The position numbers were made by a program, and so were the translations under genes. A stretch of 64,000 nucleotides of DNA from Methanospirillum hungatei JF-1 (lineage in GTDB: Archaea > Halobacteriota > Methanomicrobia > Methanomicrobiales > Methanospirillaceae). Shown piece after piece: positions 44,351 to 51,253 of this stretch. Within the stretch, counting starts at the first letter, position 1; the number at the start of each line of letters is the position of its first letter. The notes under the pieces are model-generated. The model saw only the letters and a list, made by a program, of their open reading frames with translations, was not told the DNA's origin and did not search any database. The DNA lies in NCBI RefSeq assembly GCF_000013445.1, contig NC_007796.1, positions 2,888,936-2,952,935 on the forward strand, in the 5' to 3' direction.

Positions 44351-44923
44351 ATGAAAAACAGTACTATCATCCTTATTCTCATTCTTACAACTCTTCTGCT
44401 CATACTTCCCGTTTCAGTCGCTTCACAGGGGTATGGAAACCGATTCCAGGGAAATCAGAATAGTGTCCTTCCGGAACCAGAGGACCTGAATCTCTCTGAT
44501 ACTGAAAGATCAGATCTCCTCTTCATGCGGGAAGAAGAACAAATGGCCCATGATCTCTACATGGTGTGGTATGAGATGTATGCAATTCCGATCTTCCGGA
44601 ATATTGGAGAGGCCGAAACAATCCATGCCAGTGAAGTGCAACTCCTCCTTGACAGATATCAGGTTCCTTCTGACATGATCGGAAATTATTCATCAGGATA
44701 TAATAATCCGGACATTCAGGCTCTGGCAGATGCCCTGGCAGAGCAGGGAGCACAATCTCTGACTGATGCTCTCAAAGCAGGGGTAGCAATTGAAGAGACA
44801 GATATCGCAGATCTTGATAAGGCAATCGCCAATACTACCAGACCGGATATCATCCAGGTATATACCAATCTCCGGAACGGGTCGGAGAATCACCTGAGTG
44901 CATTTACCCGTCAACTCTCTTAA
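44351..44923 (+). CDS. Exported DUF2202 ferritin-like protein
   Basis: 190 aa. Signal peptide IILILILTTLLLILPVSVAS. DUF2202 domain: ERSDLLFMREEEQMAHDLY with a carboxylate/His pair, GEAETIHASEVQLLLDRY, and a C-terminal ENHLSAF helix, consistent with a four-helix di-metal ferritin-like fold. GGTGAG precedes the ATG. Function unknown; redox or metal handling is possible. Confidence 0.85.
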   Translation: MKNSTIILILILTTLLLILPVSVASQGYGNRFQGNQNSVLPEPEDLNLSDTERSDLLFMREEEQMAHDLYMVWYEMYAIPIFRNIGEAETIHASEVQLLLDRYQVPSDMIGNYSSGYNNPDIQALADALAEQGAQSLTDALKAGVAIEETDIADLDKAIANTTRPDIIQVYTNLRNGSENHLSAFTRQLS

Positions 44924-45033
44924 ATTTCTTTTTCCAGTAATTACACAGGTGCGATGAAGGAAGACCTGTGAACCAAGTGAAAGATGAAAGATATGAAACT
45001 TGGCAAAAAAGAGAGAGGTGTGGTTTTAAGATA

Positions 45034-45363
45034 TCACTCCTCATCCAGTTCTTCAGGCTCTTCTCCGTGATCACAGAAATTATCCTCATCTAAATCACTC
45101 CAGAGCGGACAGCCTGGACAACTGCAATGAAACCCTTTCGGACAGGTCCCTGCAAGGGCATCGGCTTTTTCCCGTGTATCTTCATCTATCAGCGTCAGGT
45201 TTCCTGCATTGTCGGTAATTACCTTCTTCTCTTCGGTTTGTGCTGCAAGGAGGGGGTCCTGGCATCCGTCCCTTCCGGATGCGGAGGCAGACAGAACAAA
45301 CCCGCTTATCATGCTCATTAGGCACAACATCTGAAAAATTGTTAATATGTGTTTCGTATTCAT
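45034..45363 (-). CDS. Exported Cys-rich small protein
   Basis: 109 aa. Signal peptide at about 5-28. C-terminal half CPKGFHCSCPGCPLWSDLDE followed by DNFCDHG, five cysteines with an acidic D-x-D-x-D calcium-like repeat and an acidic tail. Possibly binds metal or a cluster. Ten bp downstream of the DUF4405-like gene, so likely its partner. Confidence 0.65.
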   Translation of the reverse strand: MNTKHILTIFQMLCLMSMISGFVLSASASGRDGCQDPLLAAQTEEKKVITDNAGNLTLIDEDTREKADALAGTCPKGFHCSCPGCPLWSDLDEDNFCDHGEEPEELDEE

Positions 45364-45373
45364 TGTACACTCC

Positions 45374-45625
45374 TTATGAGATCAAATTACGAGCCATTCT
45401 CCGGATAAATCCTCTAAACTGATATATATGGACCATCACCAGTACGGTCATGAGTAATCCTGACCAGTCATGAAGATCCGTAATCAGAGCAACCGGAACC
45501 TGGCGGTACGTCAGACCCAGAGCAGGTATCAGACCTGGCCATTTGAGAATGCCGGTCACTACACAGATGACGGTTACAATGAGGAGGAGAAGACTGGTGA
45601 TTCTGATGAAAGTTTTTCTACCCAT
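45374..45625 (-). CDS. DUF4405-like two-helix cytochrome b-type membrane protein
   Basis: 83 aa with two membrane helices (LLLLIVTVICVVTGIL and SGLLMTVLVMVHIYQ). His residues at DLHDWSG and MVHIYQ, one per helix end region, could bind haem as in DUF4405/cytochrome b561-like proteins. With the Cys-rich exported protein it may form a small redox module. Haem binding is inferred. Confidence 0.65.
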   Translation of the reverse strand: MGRKTFIRITSLLLLIVTVICVVTGILKWPGLIPALGLTYRQVPVALITDLHDWSGLLMTVLVMVHIYQFRGFIRRMARNLIS

Positions 45626-45908
45626 AATTCCTTACTCCAGTTGTTTTTATACGAGGTTTGCACAGCATGAGCCATGTCTCTTGAATCACTGATAAACAGC
45701 CGATTCTGAAGTTTATGAAATAATGGATTATTGAACATATAAAAAAAGCACTATCATTCAGGTTCACCCTTACAACCATCCGGATCAGAGGGGGAGGTGA
45801 GAGCCTGACTTGTCCACAGAATCCCTTATCCCCTCTCAATGAAAATCTGATGAGTACATCAGCAGTCTGTCTGATTTTGAGTAATATATGCTCTATTGCG
45901 GTATCACC

Positions 45909-48479
45909 ATGACGCTCATAGATATTGAGACTATACAAGGACTATCCAGAGACCAGGTAGAAGAGCGGATCAAGACATTCGGATATAACGAACTTCCAAA
46001 ACATAAGAAAGACGGTATTTTTGAGGTCATACTTGAGGTTGCCAGAGAACCGATGTTCCTCCTCCTGGTAACGAGTGGTCTTATCTACTTTTTCCTTGGT
46101 GATATCACCGAAGCTGTCATGCTTATGAGTTTTGTGCTGGTCATCATCGGTATTACGGTATACCAGGAACGAAAGACTGAACGGGCACTCGAAGCCCTCC
46201 GGAATCTCTCAAGTCCACGGGCTCTCGTAATCAGGGACGGCCAGCAGAGGCGGATTGCAGGACGGGAGGTTGTTCCCGGTGATATCCTCATCCTCTCAGA
46301 AGGAGACCGGGTTCCTGCCGACGGGATTCTCCTCTCATCGAATAATCTTACCGTTGATGAATCACTCCTTACCGGTGAATCGGTCCCCGTACGAAAGATT
46401 CCCTGGACTGAAGGGCTGAAAGAGCAGGCTCCGGGCGGAGATGATCAGCCATTCGTATATTCTGGAACCCTAATCGTTCAGGGTCAGGCCCTTGCTGAAG
46501 TCAAAAGTACTGGCTCTGGGACTGAGATGGGGAAGATAGGCATGGTTCTCCAGGAAGTCGGGCGGGATGATAGCAGGCTGAAAGTGGAGATATCCTCGAT
46601 GGTGAAGATCATCGCAACATGCGGTCTTCTCCTGTGCCTTATCATCGTTATCATCTATGGAATCGGCCGGGGAGACTGGATATCAGGACTTCTTGCAGGA
46701 ATTACTCTTGCGATGGCGATCCTTCCGGAAGAGTTCCCGGTGGTTTTAACGGTTTTTCTTGCGCTTGGTGCATGGAGAATCTCAGAAAAGCATGTACTTA
46801 CCCGTCAGGTTCCTGCAATTGAAACCCTGGGCTCTGCATCAGTTCTCTGTGTAGACAAGACCGGGACGCTTACGCTTAATAAAATGACCGTGCAATCCTT
46901 TTTCGCAGATGATGAATTCTGTGAGCATGACGGAGCCGGTGAAAATTCGGTCCCTGATTCCTGTCATGAACTATCCGAATACGCCATTCTTGCCTGTAAG
47001 AGAGATCCCTTTGATCCCATGGAAAAGGCTCTTATACAGCTCTCAGAGGGAGATTTTGGAAGAACAGAGCATATACATAAAGACTGGAAGCTCATAACCG
47101 AATATCCTCTCTCATCTGACCTCCTGGCGATGTCTAATGTCTGGCAGTCTCCGGACGGCCGCGAATTTATCATAGCCGCCAAGGGTGCTCCGGAAGCGAT
47201 TGCTGATCTGTGTCATTTTTCGGAGCAGGAACAGAAAAAACTTGCAGAGCAGATAGATGTGATGGCATCAAAGGGCCTTCGGATTCTTGGCGTTGCAAAA
47301 TCATCATTTACAATTTCGGAGCTCCCACGTATCCAGCATGACTTCGTTTTTACGTTTCTTGGCCTTATCGGGTTTGCTGATCCGGTCAGACCGGGGATCG
47401 CTGAAGCGGTGAGCGAGTGTTATGCTGCCGGTATCAAGATCATTATGATAACCGGTGATTACCCCCGTACAGCCCAGAATATTGCAGATCAGATCGGGCT
47501 TTTGCATACCGATAACACAGTTACCGGGACTGACCTAACCGAGTGCTCGGATGATGACCTCAAAGAACGGCTCAAAACAGCTACTGTTTTTGCACGTGCC
47601 GTTCCTGAACAGAAACTCCGGATTGTCAGAGCCCTCAAGGCGAATAATGAGGTTGTTGTCATGACCGGCGACGGGGTGAATGATGCACCGGCTCTGAAAT
47701 CTGCAGATATCGGTATTGCCATGGGTGGGAGAGGTACTGATGTTGCCCGTGAAGCATCTTCGCTCGTGCTCCTTGACGATAATTTCACCTCTATCGTCTC
47801 TGCGGTCAGGCTTGGACGGAGAATATATGATAACCTCAAAAAGGCAATGGCCTATATCTTCTCTATCCACATTCCAATCGCGGGAATGTCACTCATTCCG
47901 GTCATTTTTGACATGCCACTCATTCTTATGCCGATGCATATCGTCTTCCTTGAACTCATCATAGACCCAACCTGTTCTATCGTCTTTGAGGCAGAAAAAG
48001 AAGAGCAGGACATTATGAACCGGCCGCCCCGGTCTGCGGATGAACGACTCTTCACACCAAAGACCCTCTTTCTCAGCCTGATGCAGGGGGTTGTCGTCCT
48101 CGGTGTTGTGATGCTTGTGTATCTTTATTCCCTGATGAGCGGGTTTTTAGAAACAGAGGTGCGTACCATGACTTTTATCACCATTGTGCTCGCAAACCTG
48201 CTTCTCATCCTGACCAACCGGTCCTGGTCAGAAACGATAATCTCTACGATTCGGACACCGAATACGGCTATGAGATGGGTATTTGCTGGAACAATCTGCA
48301 GCCTTGTCCTGATCCTTGCAATACCGGCACTTCGGGATCTCTTCAGGTTTTCTCTGATACCGGTCGAAGAACTTGTCACCTGTGTCCTCGCTGCCAGTGT
48401 AAGTGTGCTCTGGTTTGAGGCCTGGAAAATCTGGAACGTGCGAAAAGATCAGATACCTCATATTTTTTCAGGGATATAA
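45909..48479 (+). CDS. P-type cation-transporting ATPase (PMR1/SERCA-like)
   Basis: 856 aa from ATG 45909. TGES actuator motif (LLTGESVPVRK), phosphorylation site D316-KTGTLT, KGAPE nucleotide-domain motif, TGDGVNDAPALKSADIGIAMG hinge, and TM4 LPEEFPVVL in place of the PEGLP of SERCA, with the ion-binding Glu kept. About 10 membrane helices. Likely exports Ca2+ or a similar divalent cation; Mn2+ is not excluded. The small exported proteins downstream may be related. Confidence 0.88.
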   Translation: MTLIDIETIQGLSRDQVEERIKTFGYNELPKHKKDGIFEVILEVAREPMFLLLVTSGLIYFFLGDITEAVMLMSFVLVIIGITVYQERKTERALEALRNLSSPRALVIRDGQQRRIAGREVVPGDILILSEGDRVPADGILLSSNNLTVDESLLTGESVPVRKIPWTEGLKEQAPGGDDQPFVYSGTLIVQGQALAEVKSTGSGTEMGKIGMVLQEVGRDDSRLKVEISSMVKIIATCGLLLCLIIVIIYGIGRGDWISGLLAGITLAMAILPEEFPVVLTVFLALGAWRISEKHVLTRQVPAIETLGSASVLCVDKTGTLTLNKMTVQSFFADDEFCEHDGAGENSVPDSCHELSEYAILACKRDPFDPMEKALIQLSEGDFGRTEHIHKDWKLITEYPLSSDLLAMSNVWQSPDGREFIIAAKGAPEAIADLCHFSEQEQKKLAEQIDVMASKGLRILGVAKSSFTISELPRIQHDFVFTFLGLIGFADPVRPGIAEAVSECYAAGIKIIMITGDYPRTAQNIADQIGLLHTDNTVTGTDLTECSDDDLKERLKTATVFARAVPEQKLRIVRALKANNEVVVMTGDGVNDAPALKSADIGIAMGGRGTDVAREASSLVLLDDNFTSIVSAVRLGRRIYDNLKKAMAYIFSIHIPIAGMSLIPVIFDMPLILMPMHIVFLELIIDPTCSIVFEAEKEEQDIMNRPPRSADERLFTPKTLFLSLMQGVVVLGVVMLVYLYSLMSGFLETEVRTMTFITIVLANLLLILTNRSWSETIISTIRTPNTAMRWVFAGTICSLVLILAIPALRDLFRFSLIPVEELVTCVLAASVSVLWFEAWKIWNVRKDQIPHIFSGI

Positions 48480-48490
48480 AAAAAGAAAAA

Positions 48491-48814
48491 TTAGGAACGG
48501 TGGCCGTTCCCATGCCCGTGGGATCCTGACCGTCCACCATTACCGGATCTCATCCCAGCCTGATGATGCATACCGGTTCCATCAAGAGGCCTGACTCCGT
48601 TGCTTTGACAGTTCTTCTGGATGCAGGTCCCATTCCCTGAACCATAACCATAACCGGTCTCAAACTGACCATTCTGATGAGAGAGGCCATGATGATACCC
48701 GGTCCCGTCCTGTGGTCCGGTCTTTCCTGCACCAGATACCGGGAGAGTAACCAGGAGCATGACCAGAACCACAAGAAGTCCGATACCTACAAGACCCATT
48801 GCTCTTCGGTTCAT
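48491..48814 (-). CDS. Small exported Gly/His-rich protein
   Basis: 107 aa from ATG 48814 with GGTGAG upstream. Signal peptide (GLVGIGLLVVLVMLLVTLPVSGA) and then low-complexity Gly/Ser/His with DGTGYHHG and DGTGMHHQ repeats and two cysteines; the tail GSHGHGNGH could bind metal. Related in style to the adjacent upstream protein. Family unknown. Confidence 0.6.
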   Translation of the reverse strand: MNRRAMGLVGIGLLVVLVMLLVTLPVSGAGKTGPQDGTGYHHGLSHQNGQFETGYGYGSGNGTCIQKNCQSNGVRPLDGTGMHHQAGMRSGNGGRSGSHGHGNGHRS

Positions 48815-48819
48815 GTGAC

Positions 48820-49056
48820 TCACCTTTTCAGATTTTTCCCGTACTGCATTCCGGTTCCATCACGGGGCGGGGTCTGATTGTTCGGGCAGTCTGCCTGTGG
48901 GCAATCCGGATTCGGACAAACCCCGGTCCCTGTTGAACCATCGCCATTGTGCAGCATCATACCATTCCCATTTCCACCTTGTCCGGCTGCTGATACCGGG
49001 AAAGTGGCTCCTAAAGCGATAAGGCCCAGGATAAGGATTACGACTATTGCTTTCAT
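48820..49056 (-). CDS. Small exported Gly/Cys-rich protein
   Basis: 78 aa from ATG 49056. Signal peptide (IVVILILGLIALGATFPVSA), then GNGNGMMLHNGDGSTGTG and CPNPDCPQADCPN, ending in RDGTGMQYG. Shares the DGTGM motif with the next gene, 6 bp away in the same direction. The cysteine cluster suggests metal binding. Confidence 0.6.
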   Translation of the reverse strand: MKAIVVILILGLIALGATFPVSAAGQGGNGNGMMLHNGDGSTGTGVCPNPDCPQADCPNNQTPPRDGTGMQYGKNLKR

Positions 49057-49190
49057 ATCTTCTCCTGACCGCCTGAGCGGTGCATACATCCTCATGGGCT
49101 TTGCCCGGATTTATAGGGATAAAATGGGAGAAGTTCATACCATGAACCTGATGGTTATACAGGGTAGAACTTGATAACCATGGCCGGCCT

Positions 49191-50003
49191 ATGAATGAGT
49201 GGGATGAATATATGAATCCGGAAAGACCAGATGACCGGACAATCCTTACCAGTTCTGATCCTGAGTTTATATCAGAATTATCCGAATATCTTGATGTTCT
49301 CGCCAGCCCCATCCGCCTTCAGATCCTCTCATTTATCGGAACAAAACCCAGGACAGTCAGGCAGATCTCACATGAGATTGCGACCAGTTATGAGAATACC
49401 AAAAAACATCTGACAAAACTGCTCTCGCTCGGCATCATCCGAAAAGAGATAGGAGTCTCTGATGAACCGGTAAACATGGGTCAGCCGGTTTTTTATTATA
49501 AGCTTGTCCCGGATGGTCTGAACCATGCAGCATACAATCTCACACTTTTCAGCCAGGTTGCCGGAACGAGTAACCCGGACCTTTCAAAGCAGGTAATAGC
49601 GGCGCAAACCGGCCTGCATACCATTCTCCCTGCCAGACCAGGTTTTGTCATCATGAATGGTTCAGAGCAGGGAAGAATGATTGAACTGACAGAACCAGTA
49701 TACCGGGTCGGAAGAATTGAAGAGGGATGGAACGGAATTTCTCCTGAACCGGCTCTTCTTCTGAATGATGAGTACCGATCGGTCAGCCGGGTATCACGCC
49801 CCCATGCATGGGTGAAAAAGCAAGCAGGGTTCTGGACATTAGCAGATGGGAACAGCAAAGGGGGAACCTATATAAATGGAAGACCAATCGGTCATGATCC
49901 GGTGGTTTTGCAGGACGGCGACAGAATAGAACTCTCACCCGGAACCCTTGGCATAACCTTTACCTTTCATTCAGGAAATACCAATCCGAATCATACCCCA
50001 TGA
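49191..50003 (+). CDS. Winged-helix transcription regulator with FHA domain
   Basis: 270 aa. ArsR-type wHTH at about 30-105 (DVLASPIRLQILSFIG, ISHEIATSYENTKKHLTKLL, a wing near GQPVFYYKL). FHA at about 165-262 with the expected Gly-Arg (YRVGRIEEG), S-R-x-H (SVSRVSRPHAWV) and N-G (GTYINGRPIG) residues, so it should bind phosphothreonine peptides. Its stop overlaps the start of the membrane Ser/Thr kinase by 4 bp. Inferred: a kinase-controlled DNA-binding protein. Confidence 0.88.
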   Translation: MNEWDEYMNPERPDDRTILTSSDPEFISELSEYLDVLASPIRLQILSFIGTKPRTVRQISHEIATSYENTKKHLTKLLSLGIIRKEIGVSDEPVNMGQPVFYYKLVPDGLNHAAYNLTLFSQVAGTSNPDLSKQVIAAQTGLHTILPARPGFVIMNGSEQGRMIELTEPVYRVGRIEEGWNGISPEPALLLNDEYRSVSRVSRPHAWVKKQAGFWTLADGNSKGGTYINGRPIGHDPVVLQDGDRIELSPGTLGITFTFHSGNTNPNHTP

Positions 50004-51253
50004 AAACTACCATCTTCCCCGGCCCGGATCTCTCTCTCCGAAAGAAATCACTTTACATGTGGGGAGTTCTGATTATCCATCTTCTTCTTGCATTCCAGTA
50101 CCTTCTTGTGGAGTTTCTGTTTCTATCGGCCCCGATTCGGCACGGACACGGAGGAGGACAGGGATTGGGGAATGCGATAAACCTCTCCCTTCCTTCCTTC
50201 TCCATCCTGTTCATGCTTTTGATACTGTGCCATATCATCTCTCTTGTAGGGGCTCGTCATTCAATTCGATTCATTATTGGATCTGGATTTGGTCTGGTTA
50301 TTACAGCCACCCTGACGTTAGGACTTCTGCTCTTTTCCCGCCAGTCCATGAACCTTCTTGAGATGGTCTATTCTCATGCGATACTCGTCATTATTTCACT
50401 CATCTGCTCTCTTCTCATTGGGATATATATGGTGATCAGCCAGGTGTGGAAAGGTCATGGGAATGAAAATATACGTCAGGGCAGAGATATATCGTCCTTT
50501 CCCCTGCCGATGAACCGATACAGAAATGTCAGGCCTATTGGAGAAGGTGGCGTTGGAAGAATCTGGTATGCAGAGCGGACAGGTGATGGAACGCCGGTCG
50601 TCGTGAAAGTCCCACGAACGGATGATGAAATGACCGGTCTTTCATTTATGCAGGAGATCAGTATCTGGAGAGATCTGGAACACCCTCATATTGCCACACT
50701 TCTTTCTGCAAATATCCTCCCTGTTCCGTATATTGAGATAGAGTATCTCCCCCGATCGGTTGCAGATCTGAAAACCCCGCACCCAATACCACAGGCGTTG
50801 CAGATCATTCAGGGTCTTGTATCCGCTCTTATATATGCTCATGGCCGGGGAGTTATCCATTGTGATATAAAACCCACGAATATCCTTCTGACTCACGAAG
50901 GGATGGTAAAACTCACCGACTGGGGGCTTGCCCGGTCAGGGAGAGACCGACGGTCAGTATCGGGGTTTTCTCCAACCTATGCAGCCCCTGAGCAGCGTTC
51001 GGTGTATTCAGAATGCACCGCTCCAACGGACATCTGGCAGGTTGGAATGGTATGTGCCGAACTCCTCACTGGCAGACCGGAGATCCCGTCCGGAACAGAA
51101 CCTGTCTTTCAGACCGGTGAAGGAGAGAAACTTCTATCAATTATTCTGAAATGTCTGGTTTCAGACCCAGCCGGACGATATCAGTCAATCCGGGAACTTT
51201 CAGTTGATCTTGAGAGGATTGCTCCTGAAAGAAGTGACGATTCTGGTTATTAA
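50000..51253 (+). CDS. Membrane Ser/Thr protein kinase (Hanks type)
   Basis: 417 aa. Four membrane helices at about 20-45, 68-88, 92-113 and 125-148, then a cytoplasmic kinase at about 175-412: GEGGVGRIWYA loop, Lys in VVVKVP, catalytic H287-C-D289 in VIHCDIKPTNILL, Mg site DWG (for DFG), and YAAPEQ for APE. The non-RD catalytic loop is usual in kinases not controlled by loop phosphorylation. Translationally linked to the HTH-FHA gene, its probable substrate or reader. Confidence 0.9.
   Translation: MKTTIFPGPDLSLRKKSLYMWGVLIIHLLLAFQYLLVEFLFLSAPIRHGHGGGQGLGNAINLSLPSFSILFMLLILCHIISLVGARHSIRFIIGSGFGLVITATLTLGLLLFSRQSMNLLEMVYSHAILVIISLICSLLIGIYMVISQVWKGHGNENIRQGRDISSFPLPMNRYRNVRPIGEGGVGRIWYAERTGDGTPVVVKVPRTDDEMTGLSFMQEISIWRDLEHPHIATLLSANILPVPYIEIEYLPRSVADLKTPHPIPQALQIIQGLVSALIYAHGRGVIHCDIKPTNILLTHEGMVKLTDWGLARSGRDRRSVSGFSPTYAAPEQRSVYSECTAPTDIWQVGMVCAELLTGRPEIPSGTEPVFQTGEGEKLLSIILKCLVSDPAGRYQSIRELSVDLERIAPERSDDSGY

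Follow-up and report, generated by a model that had tools for sequence, protein, structure and literature searches.

A conserved winged-helix FHA regulator and membrane Ser/Thr kinase pair in Methanomicrobiales, with a putative operator/UAS at genes for small secreted proteins

Within the 64,000-nucleotide stretch of Methanospirillum hungatei JF-1 DNA analysed here (the window), a gene for a predicted transcription factor that joins an ArsR-type winged helix to an FHA domain (the wHTH-FHA protein) overlaps by 4 bp the gene for a four-helix membrane Hanks-type kinase. Open reading frames, Pfam matches and AlphaFold2 models all agree on this arrangement, as the first-pass annotation had described it. 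Its phrase "fused by overlap" does not hold, as the genes overlap while the proteins are separate, and the overlap is retained in five of nine Methanospirillum pairs, with a short gap in the remainder. Divergent from the pair lie genes for small secreted proteins, separated from it by a putative operator/UAS (Table 1).

Table 1. Features of the wHTH-FHA/kinase locus and of related loci (window positions unless stated).
Feature	Position	Strand	Remarks
wHTH-FHA transcription factor (predicted), 270 aa	49191..50003	+	alternative start 49212, as in some relatives
Thr17 codon, N-terminal tail of wHTH-FHA protein	49239..49241	+	candidate phospho-switch residue, function by analogy with DgcB/GarA/OdhI
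ArsR-type winged helix, about residues 37-89	49299..49457	+	Pfam, alignment
FHA domain, about residues 150-260	49638..49970	+	Pfam, model, fold match
Four-helix membrane Hanks-type kinase, 417 aa, HCD/DWG variant	50000..51253	+	Pfam, model, alignment
First inter-helix loop APIRHGHGGGQGL, residues 44-56	50129..50167	+	predicted outside; His/Gly-rich, variable among orthologues
Kinase domain, about residues 174-407	50519..51220	+	Pfam, model
Putative operator/UAS AGTTCATACCATGAACCTGATGGTT	49132..49156	.	between FHA gene and divergent small gene; conserved in relatives
TATA box of divergent small gene	49111..49115	-	16 nt from operator
78-aa small secreted Cys-containing protein (predicted target 1)	48820..49056	-	start MKAIVV at 49056; longest ORF from 49095
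110-aa Gly/His-rich secreted protein (target 1, second gene)	48491..48823	-	related to 78-aa protein
83-aa DUF4405/cytochrome b561-like membrane protein (probable target 2)	45374..45625	-	weak operator-like site 45753-45777
109-aa Cys-rich secreted protein (probable target 2, second gene)	45034..45363	-	
PMR1/LMCA1-like calcium-type P-type ATPase (neighbour, possible target)	45888..48479	+	nearest are PMR1/LMCA1 calcium pumps
DUF2202 secreted protein (possible target)	44351..44923	+	operator-like site upstream in relatives L044, L045
Paralogous FHA-kinase pair	0.357-0.359 Mb of JF-1 genome		FHA-domain search

The AlphaFold2 model of the wHTH-FHA protein has a mean pLDDT of 87. Pfam identifies an HTH_5/ArsR domain at residues 39-85 (E 2e-6; 28 bits against a cut-off of 22), this part of the model matches the ArsR fold of SmtB and NolR, and the homologue alignment shows almost no variation in the recognition-helix region, TSYENTKKHL. 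The FHA domain (PF00498) is matched above its cut-off at residues 199-248 (E 1.2e-11), and an FHA fold heads the structural matches of the model, which include the FHA domains of GarA, OdhI, EmbR and DgcB. Consistent with the phospho-binding residues picked out by the first-pass annotation, most of the ligand-site positions (G174-R175, S202-R203-P204-H205 and S222/G225/N229) vary little or not at all across 55 homologues, and R175, S202 and N229 of the phosphothreonine site are kept. The protein shares its winged-helix fold with the ArsR/SmtB metalloregulators, but none of its 270 residues is Cys, so that it has no ArsR-type thiol metal site; direct metal sensing was thus ruled out, and we propose that its output runs via the FHA domain instead. 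Among the matches listed, the closest named homologue is the FHA protein of M. hungatei isolate M59, which is 92% identical.

In the kinase, the Pfam Pkinase domain (PF00069) is matched at residues 174-365 (E 4.6e-32, above the curated cut-off), and the AlphaFold2 model shows four long N-terminal helices (residues 13-43, 57-86, 89-112 and 127-154) followed by a kinase fold, for which the best-scoring solved relatives include StkP and PknB. The core Hanks residues noted previously are indeed all present (catalytic K, E, HxD, N, DxG and APE), and 33 of 33 paired kinases share K203, E219, H287, D289, K291, N294, D307-W308-G309 and P330-E331, which identifies the protein as a member of the Hanks-type kinase family. 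Two variant motifs had also been singled out at the outset. DWG in place of DFG is present in all 33 paired kinases and is therefore a family trait. HCD in place of HRD is invariant in all nine Methanospirillum short kinases and shared with some short kinases of another family, while most other kinases compared carry HRD. The first inter-helix loop is a candidate sensor loop. In the paralogous pairs the N-terminal parts of the kinases differ, consisting of a NosD-like beta-helix, a PEGA domain or no recognised domain.

We next consider how widely the two genes occur together. In a family-level sample of 100 genomes, 80 encode an FHA homologue, and a Hanks kinase is found within 4 kb of at least 100 of the 114 homologues, always downstream and in 98 cases on the same strand; this count is a lower bound because some contigs end beside the homologue. 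The first-pass annotation had made its proposal depend on synteny in other Methanomicrobiales, and there the pair is clearly conserved. FHA and kinase distances also correlate strongly over 41 pairs (r = 0.825; the largest value in 2000 permutations was 0.178). Swapping partners within a genome lowered r in seven of the seven genomes tested, and r fell to 0.53 when all were swapped. Since swaps worsen the fit, the pairs look insulated from one another, like two-component pairs. Genomes carry up to four FHA genes. The single-contig JF-1 genome (3,544,738 bp) encodes three FHA domains, none more than about 5 kb from a kinase. Two of them belong to the window pair and the paralogous pair of Table 1, and the third to a distinct phospho-signalling module at about 1.7188-1.7263 Mb (L281:4793-12314), where genes for an FHA protein (184 aa), an AAA protein (600 aa), a kinase-TPR protein (862 aa), a coiled protein (536 aa) and a PP2C phosphatase (262 aa) lie on one strand.

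A wHTH-FHA homologue is present in 154 of 232 Methanomicrobiales genomes. A phylum-wide scan of 295 genomes returned 43 with a match, all within Methanomicrobiales and none outside it. When 84,980 bacterial and archaeal species were scanned, all 80 loci among the matches listed carried archaeal titles, nearly all of them Methanomicrobiales or unclassified Euryarchaeota and one (L078) labelled Thermoplasmata. The pair is thus unusual in an archaeon, as first remarked, only when viewed from outside Methanomicrobiales; inside this group it is the norm.

The N-terminal tail that precedes the winged helix is predicted as coil by AlphaFold2 and varies among homologues, with a single invariant Thr: position 17 is Thr in 95 of the 95 homologues tabulated and is followed by mostly hydrophobic residues, mostly I, L or V. 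GarA and OdhI likewise possess an N-terminal phosphorylatable region, and the FHA domain of DgcB recognises the phosphorylated N-terminal tail of DgcB itself (PMC6733907). By analogy, Thr17 is a candidate phospho-switch of this kind and may be the residue that the kinase phosphorylates, although Thr17 and its hydrophobic followers could instead be structural. If they were, the FHA domain might dock in the manner of EmbR on an autophosphorylated Thr of the kinase, which would either bring the regulator to the membrane to be phosphorylated at another residue or sequester it. There is precedent for docking, as the FHA domains of GarA and OdhI dock on autophosphorylated PknG and the interaction of EmbR with PknH requires the EmbR FHA domain (PMC4601284). 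However, the nine short Methanospirillum kinases are of the non-RD type (HCD), and their activation segment lacks a Thr common to all of them, making this segment a less likely docking site; the invariance of Thr17 in an otherwise variable tail also speaks against this reading. We regard docking in place of a Thr17 switch as an unlikely alternative, and the two routes can coexist.

The sequences upstream of the FHA genes point to a candidate DNA site. The dyads AACC-N4-GGTT and GGTT-N9-AACC are enriched upstream of 88 FHA genes, and at least 12/14 consensus matches are found upstream of the FHA gene at 25 of the 88 loci (0.05 expected); at many FHA loci, including those of Methanolinea, second paralogous pairs and most Methanoculleus, no element was found at the FHA gene itself. 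In the JF-1 locus, the 24-bp core at 49133-49156 is the single perfect GTT-N7-TGAACC-N4-GGTT in the 3.5-Mb genome. Across 232 Methanomicrobiales genomes the pattern GGTT-N7-TGAACC-N4-GGTT gave 69 matches, compared to one for the reversed pattern and 12 for a control with N8 spacing.

Of 154 genomes that have an FHA gene, 79 carry the composite element, against six of the 78 that lack one; the Fisher p of 7e-12 for this difference is inflated and overstates independence because the genomes share ancestry. The six exceptions (G355, G417, G469, G059, G446 and G401) reflect either a lost or missed regulator or another binder. In G059 the missing FHA gene may be due to a contig end, while G355 and G417 are at least 95% complete and constitute the main counter-evidence to a link between regulator and element. 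It is conceivable that the pair does work as a phospho-signalling unit while the GGTT/AACC element is the site of a different, general transcription factor in Methanomicrobiales, with the FHA locus just one of its neighbours, as many copies lie distant from FHA genes, the six genomes carry the element with no FHA gene detected, and several FHA groups have no element at their own gene. Against this, the element is enriched in FHA-positive genomes, absent from the FHA-less genus g6, near-absent from family f3, and, in several genera, strongly enriched at precisely the upstream regions of the FHA genes; its dyad half-sites would suit a dimeric winged helix, and the recognition-helix residues are nearly invariant. 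We therefore consider a separate factor unlikely and favour the wHTH-FHA protein as the probable binder.

The position of the element suggests what its binder does. In 22 of 43 distinct copies a TATA-like hexamer starts exactly 16 nt outward from the element on one side, whereas every other offset accounts for at most three copies, the opposite side shows no peak and the background is about 0.3 per offset; there is some kinship by descent among the copies, yet the 16-nt spacing recurs before unrelated genes in several families. The element in the window points away from the FHA gene, towards the small genes at 48491-49056. In the interval between operator and TATA box (49116-49131) we also observed a YATTTT block, which small-gene promoters in two families carry at a constant offset. 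For archaeal activation the expected layout places the activator site upstream of the basal promoter, and the fixed 16-nt position has this geometry, which argues for activation. The "ArsR-type repressor" of the first-pass annotation is accordingly unsupported: the sole operator found lies upstream of the target TATA box, at a fixed 16 nt and on one side. The pathway from kinase to FHA regulator proposed with it fares better, as synteny, co-variation and conserved residues point to a dedicated pair. A classic ArsR repressor of the divergent genes, relieved when the kinase inactivates it, would agree with the ArsR-type fold, and an operator near the regulator's own promoter could repress the FHA-kinase operon, but the operator does not lie over the TATA box or start site, and we judge this reading improbable. 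That the genes are chance neighbours and the kinase acts on other substrates is scarcely credible, for although both domain families are common, at least 100 of 114 homologues are paired and the partners co-vary.

Unlinked copies of the element help to define the putative targets. In genome G063 the FHA locus has neither the small genes nor an operator, and operators are found at unlinked sites: before orthologues of the small pair (L220), where the orthologue of the 78-aa gene carries the same UAS, and in tandem before the DUF4405 and 109-aa secreted-protein orthologues (L149). A strong UAS is also present at the DUF4405 orthologue in L043. In another family, too, a P-type ATPase gene adjoins the operator (L242). 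No clear operator was found upstream of the DUF2202 gene in the window; the sites at this gene and at the P-type ATPase gene there are weak, and the idea that either is directly connected to a DNA site within the window was dropped. The genes downstream of the composite element in other families encode different small secreted Cys-rich proteins and, in some cases, other products. Composite UAS-N16-TATA promoters (L231-L260, L312-L341) additionally occur before TM2-like proteins in family f2 and, in genus g16, before a small wHTH gene. The DUF2202, DUF4405, Cys-rich and P-type ATPase genes (44351-49056) are found near the Methanospirillum FHA-kinase pair in varying order and combination; in genome G052 the DUF2202 gene (L043:3027-3748) is broken up into a pair of ORFs that overlap, perhaps owing to a frameshift.

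On balance, we think it probable that a cognate Ser/Thr kinase and FHA regulator, working through a phospho-Thr17 switch, activate a regulon of secreted Cys-rich proteins via the element. Comparative sequence analysis supplies the pairing, the co-variation, the intact active and ligand sites, the invariance of Thr17 and the element with its spacing and target genes; from these we infer the FHA protein as binder, Thr17 phosphorylation, activation over repression, and the signal. The pair would function like a two-component system, in which the membrane kinase, with four helices here and other ectodomains in paralogous pairs, would sense an envelope condition and phosphorylate its partner, most likely at Thr17. 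The FHA domain would then bind pThr17 in cis or across the dimer and thereby alter DNA binding by the winged helix. Bound to alternating GGTTCA/TGAACC half-sites 16 bp upstream of TATA, the regulator would activate a small regulon of secreted Cys-rich proteins and, in places, membrane and cation-transport genes. For the broader proposal of a Methanomicrobiales-wide "Ser/Thr two-component" system, with insulated pairs, an intramolecular pThr17-FHA switch, a UAS 16 bp from TATA and a secreted Cys-rich output, we see the case as evenly poised.

The proposed UAS and regulon go beyond the finding of the first-pass annotation. To our knowledge, the roles of Hanks kinases in euryarchaea are largely unknown. 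If the proposal is true, a phosphothreonine pathway is complete here from membrane to promoter, with a sensor kinase, a transcription factor that reads the phosphorylation, a DNA site of precise promoter geometry and a small regulon, and it is present in the greater part of a methanogen order of ecological importance. A set of uncharacterised secreted Cys-rich proteins would also gain a regulator, and the signal, the phosphosite, DNA binding and the activation of archaeal genes from a fixed site ahead of TATA would all become open to direct tests.

Finally, we compared the pair with known systems; in the open-access literature we found no published wHTH-FHA/kinase pairs in methanogens. Archaeal two-component systems resemble it in their insulated sensor-kinase/regulator pairs but use His-Asp chemistry in place of a Ser/Thr kinase and FHA domain, and archaeal response regulators with HTH or other DNA-binding domains are rare (PMC5847659). 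In the ArnA-ArnB-ArnC/D network of Sulfolobus, an archaeal FHA protein and Hanks kinases likewise control gene expression (PMC12852372, PMC10470591). However, ArnA combines a zinc finger with FHA, has the vWA protein ArnB as its partner and contains no HTH, whereas the wHTH-FHA protein gave no zinc-finger match and is partnered by a kinase. GarA, OdhI and Bdellovibrio DgcB share the N-terminal tail Thr and the FHA fold that was the top structural match, but GarA and OdhI control enzymes, DgcB is a diguanylate cyclase and none has a winged helix; the self-switch is a prediction here. The nearest logic is that of EmbR/PknH in Mycobacterium tuberculosis, a transmembrane Hanks kinase and a DNA-binding regulator with C-terminal FHA domain, where phosphorylation raises promoter binding and the EmbR FHA domain is needed (PMC4601284). 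EmbR itself, with a SARP/OmpR-type HTH, BTA (BTA/TPR) and FHA, aligns only partially to the model of the wHTH-FHA protein, which joins an ArsR-type winged helix to FHA and has no BTA. The present system further differs in being archaeal, in comprising several paralogous insulated pairs and in its conserved N-terminal Thr, and is best labelled archaeal kinase-FHA transcription control, with EmbR/PknH-like logic in a different architecture.
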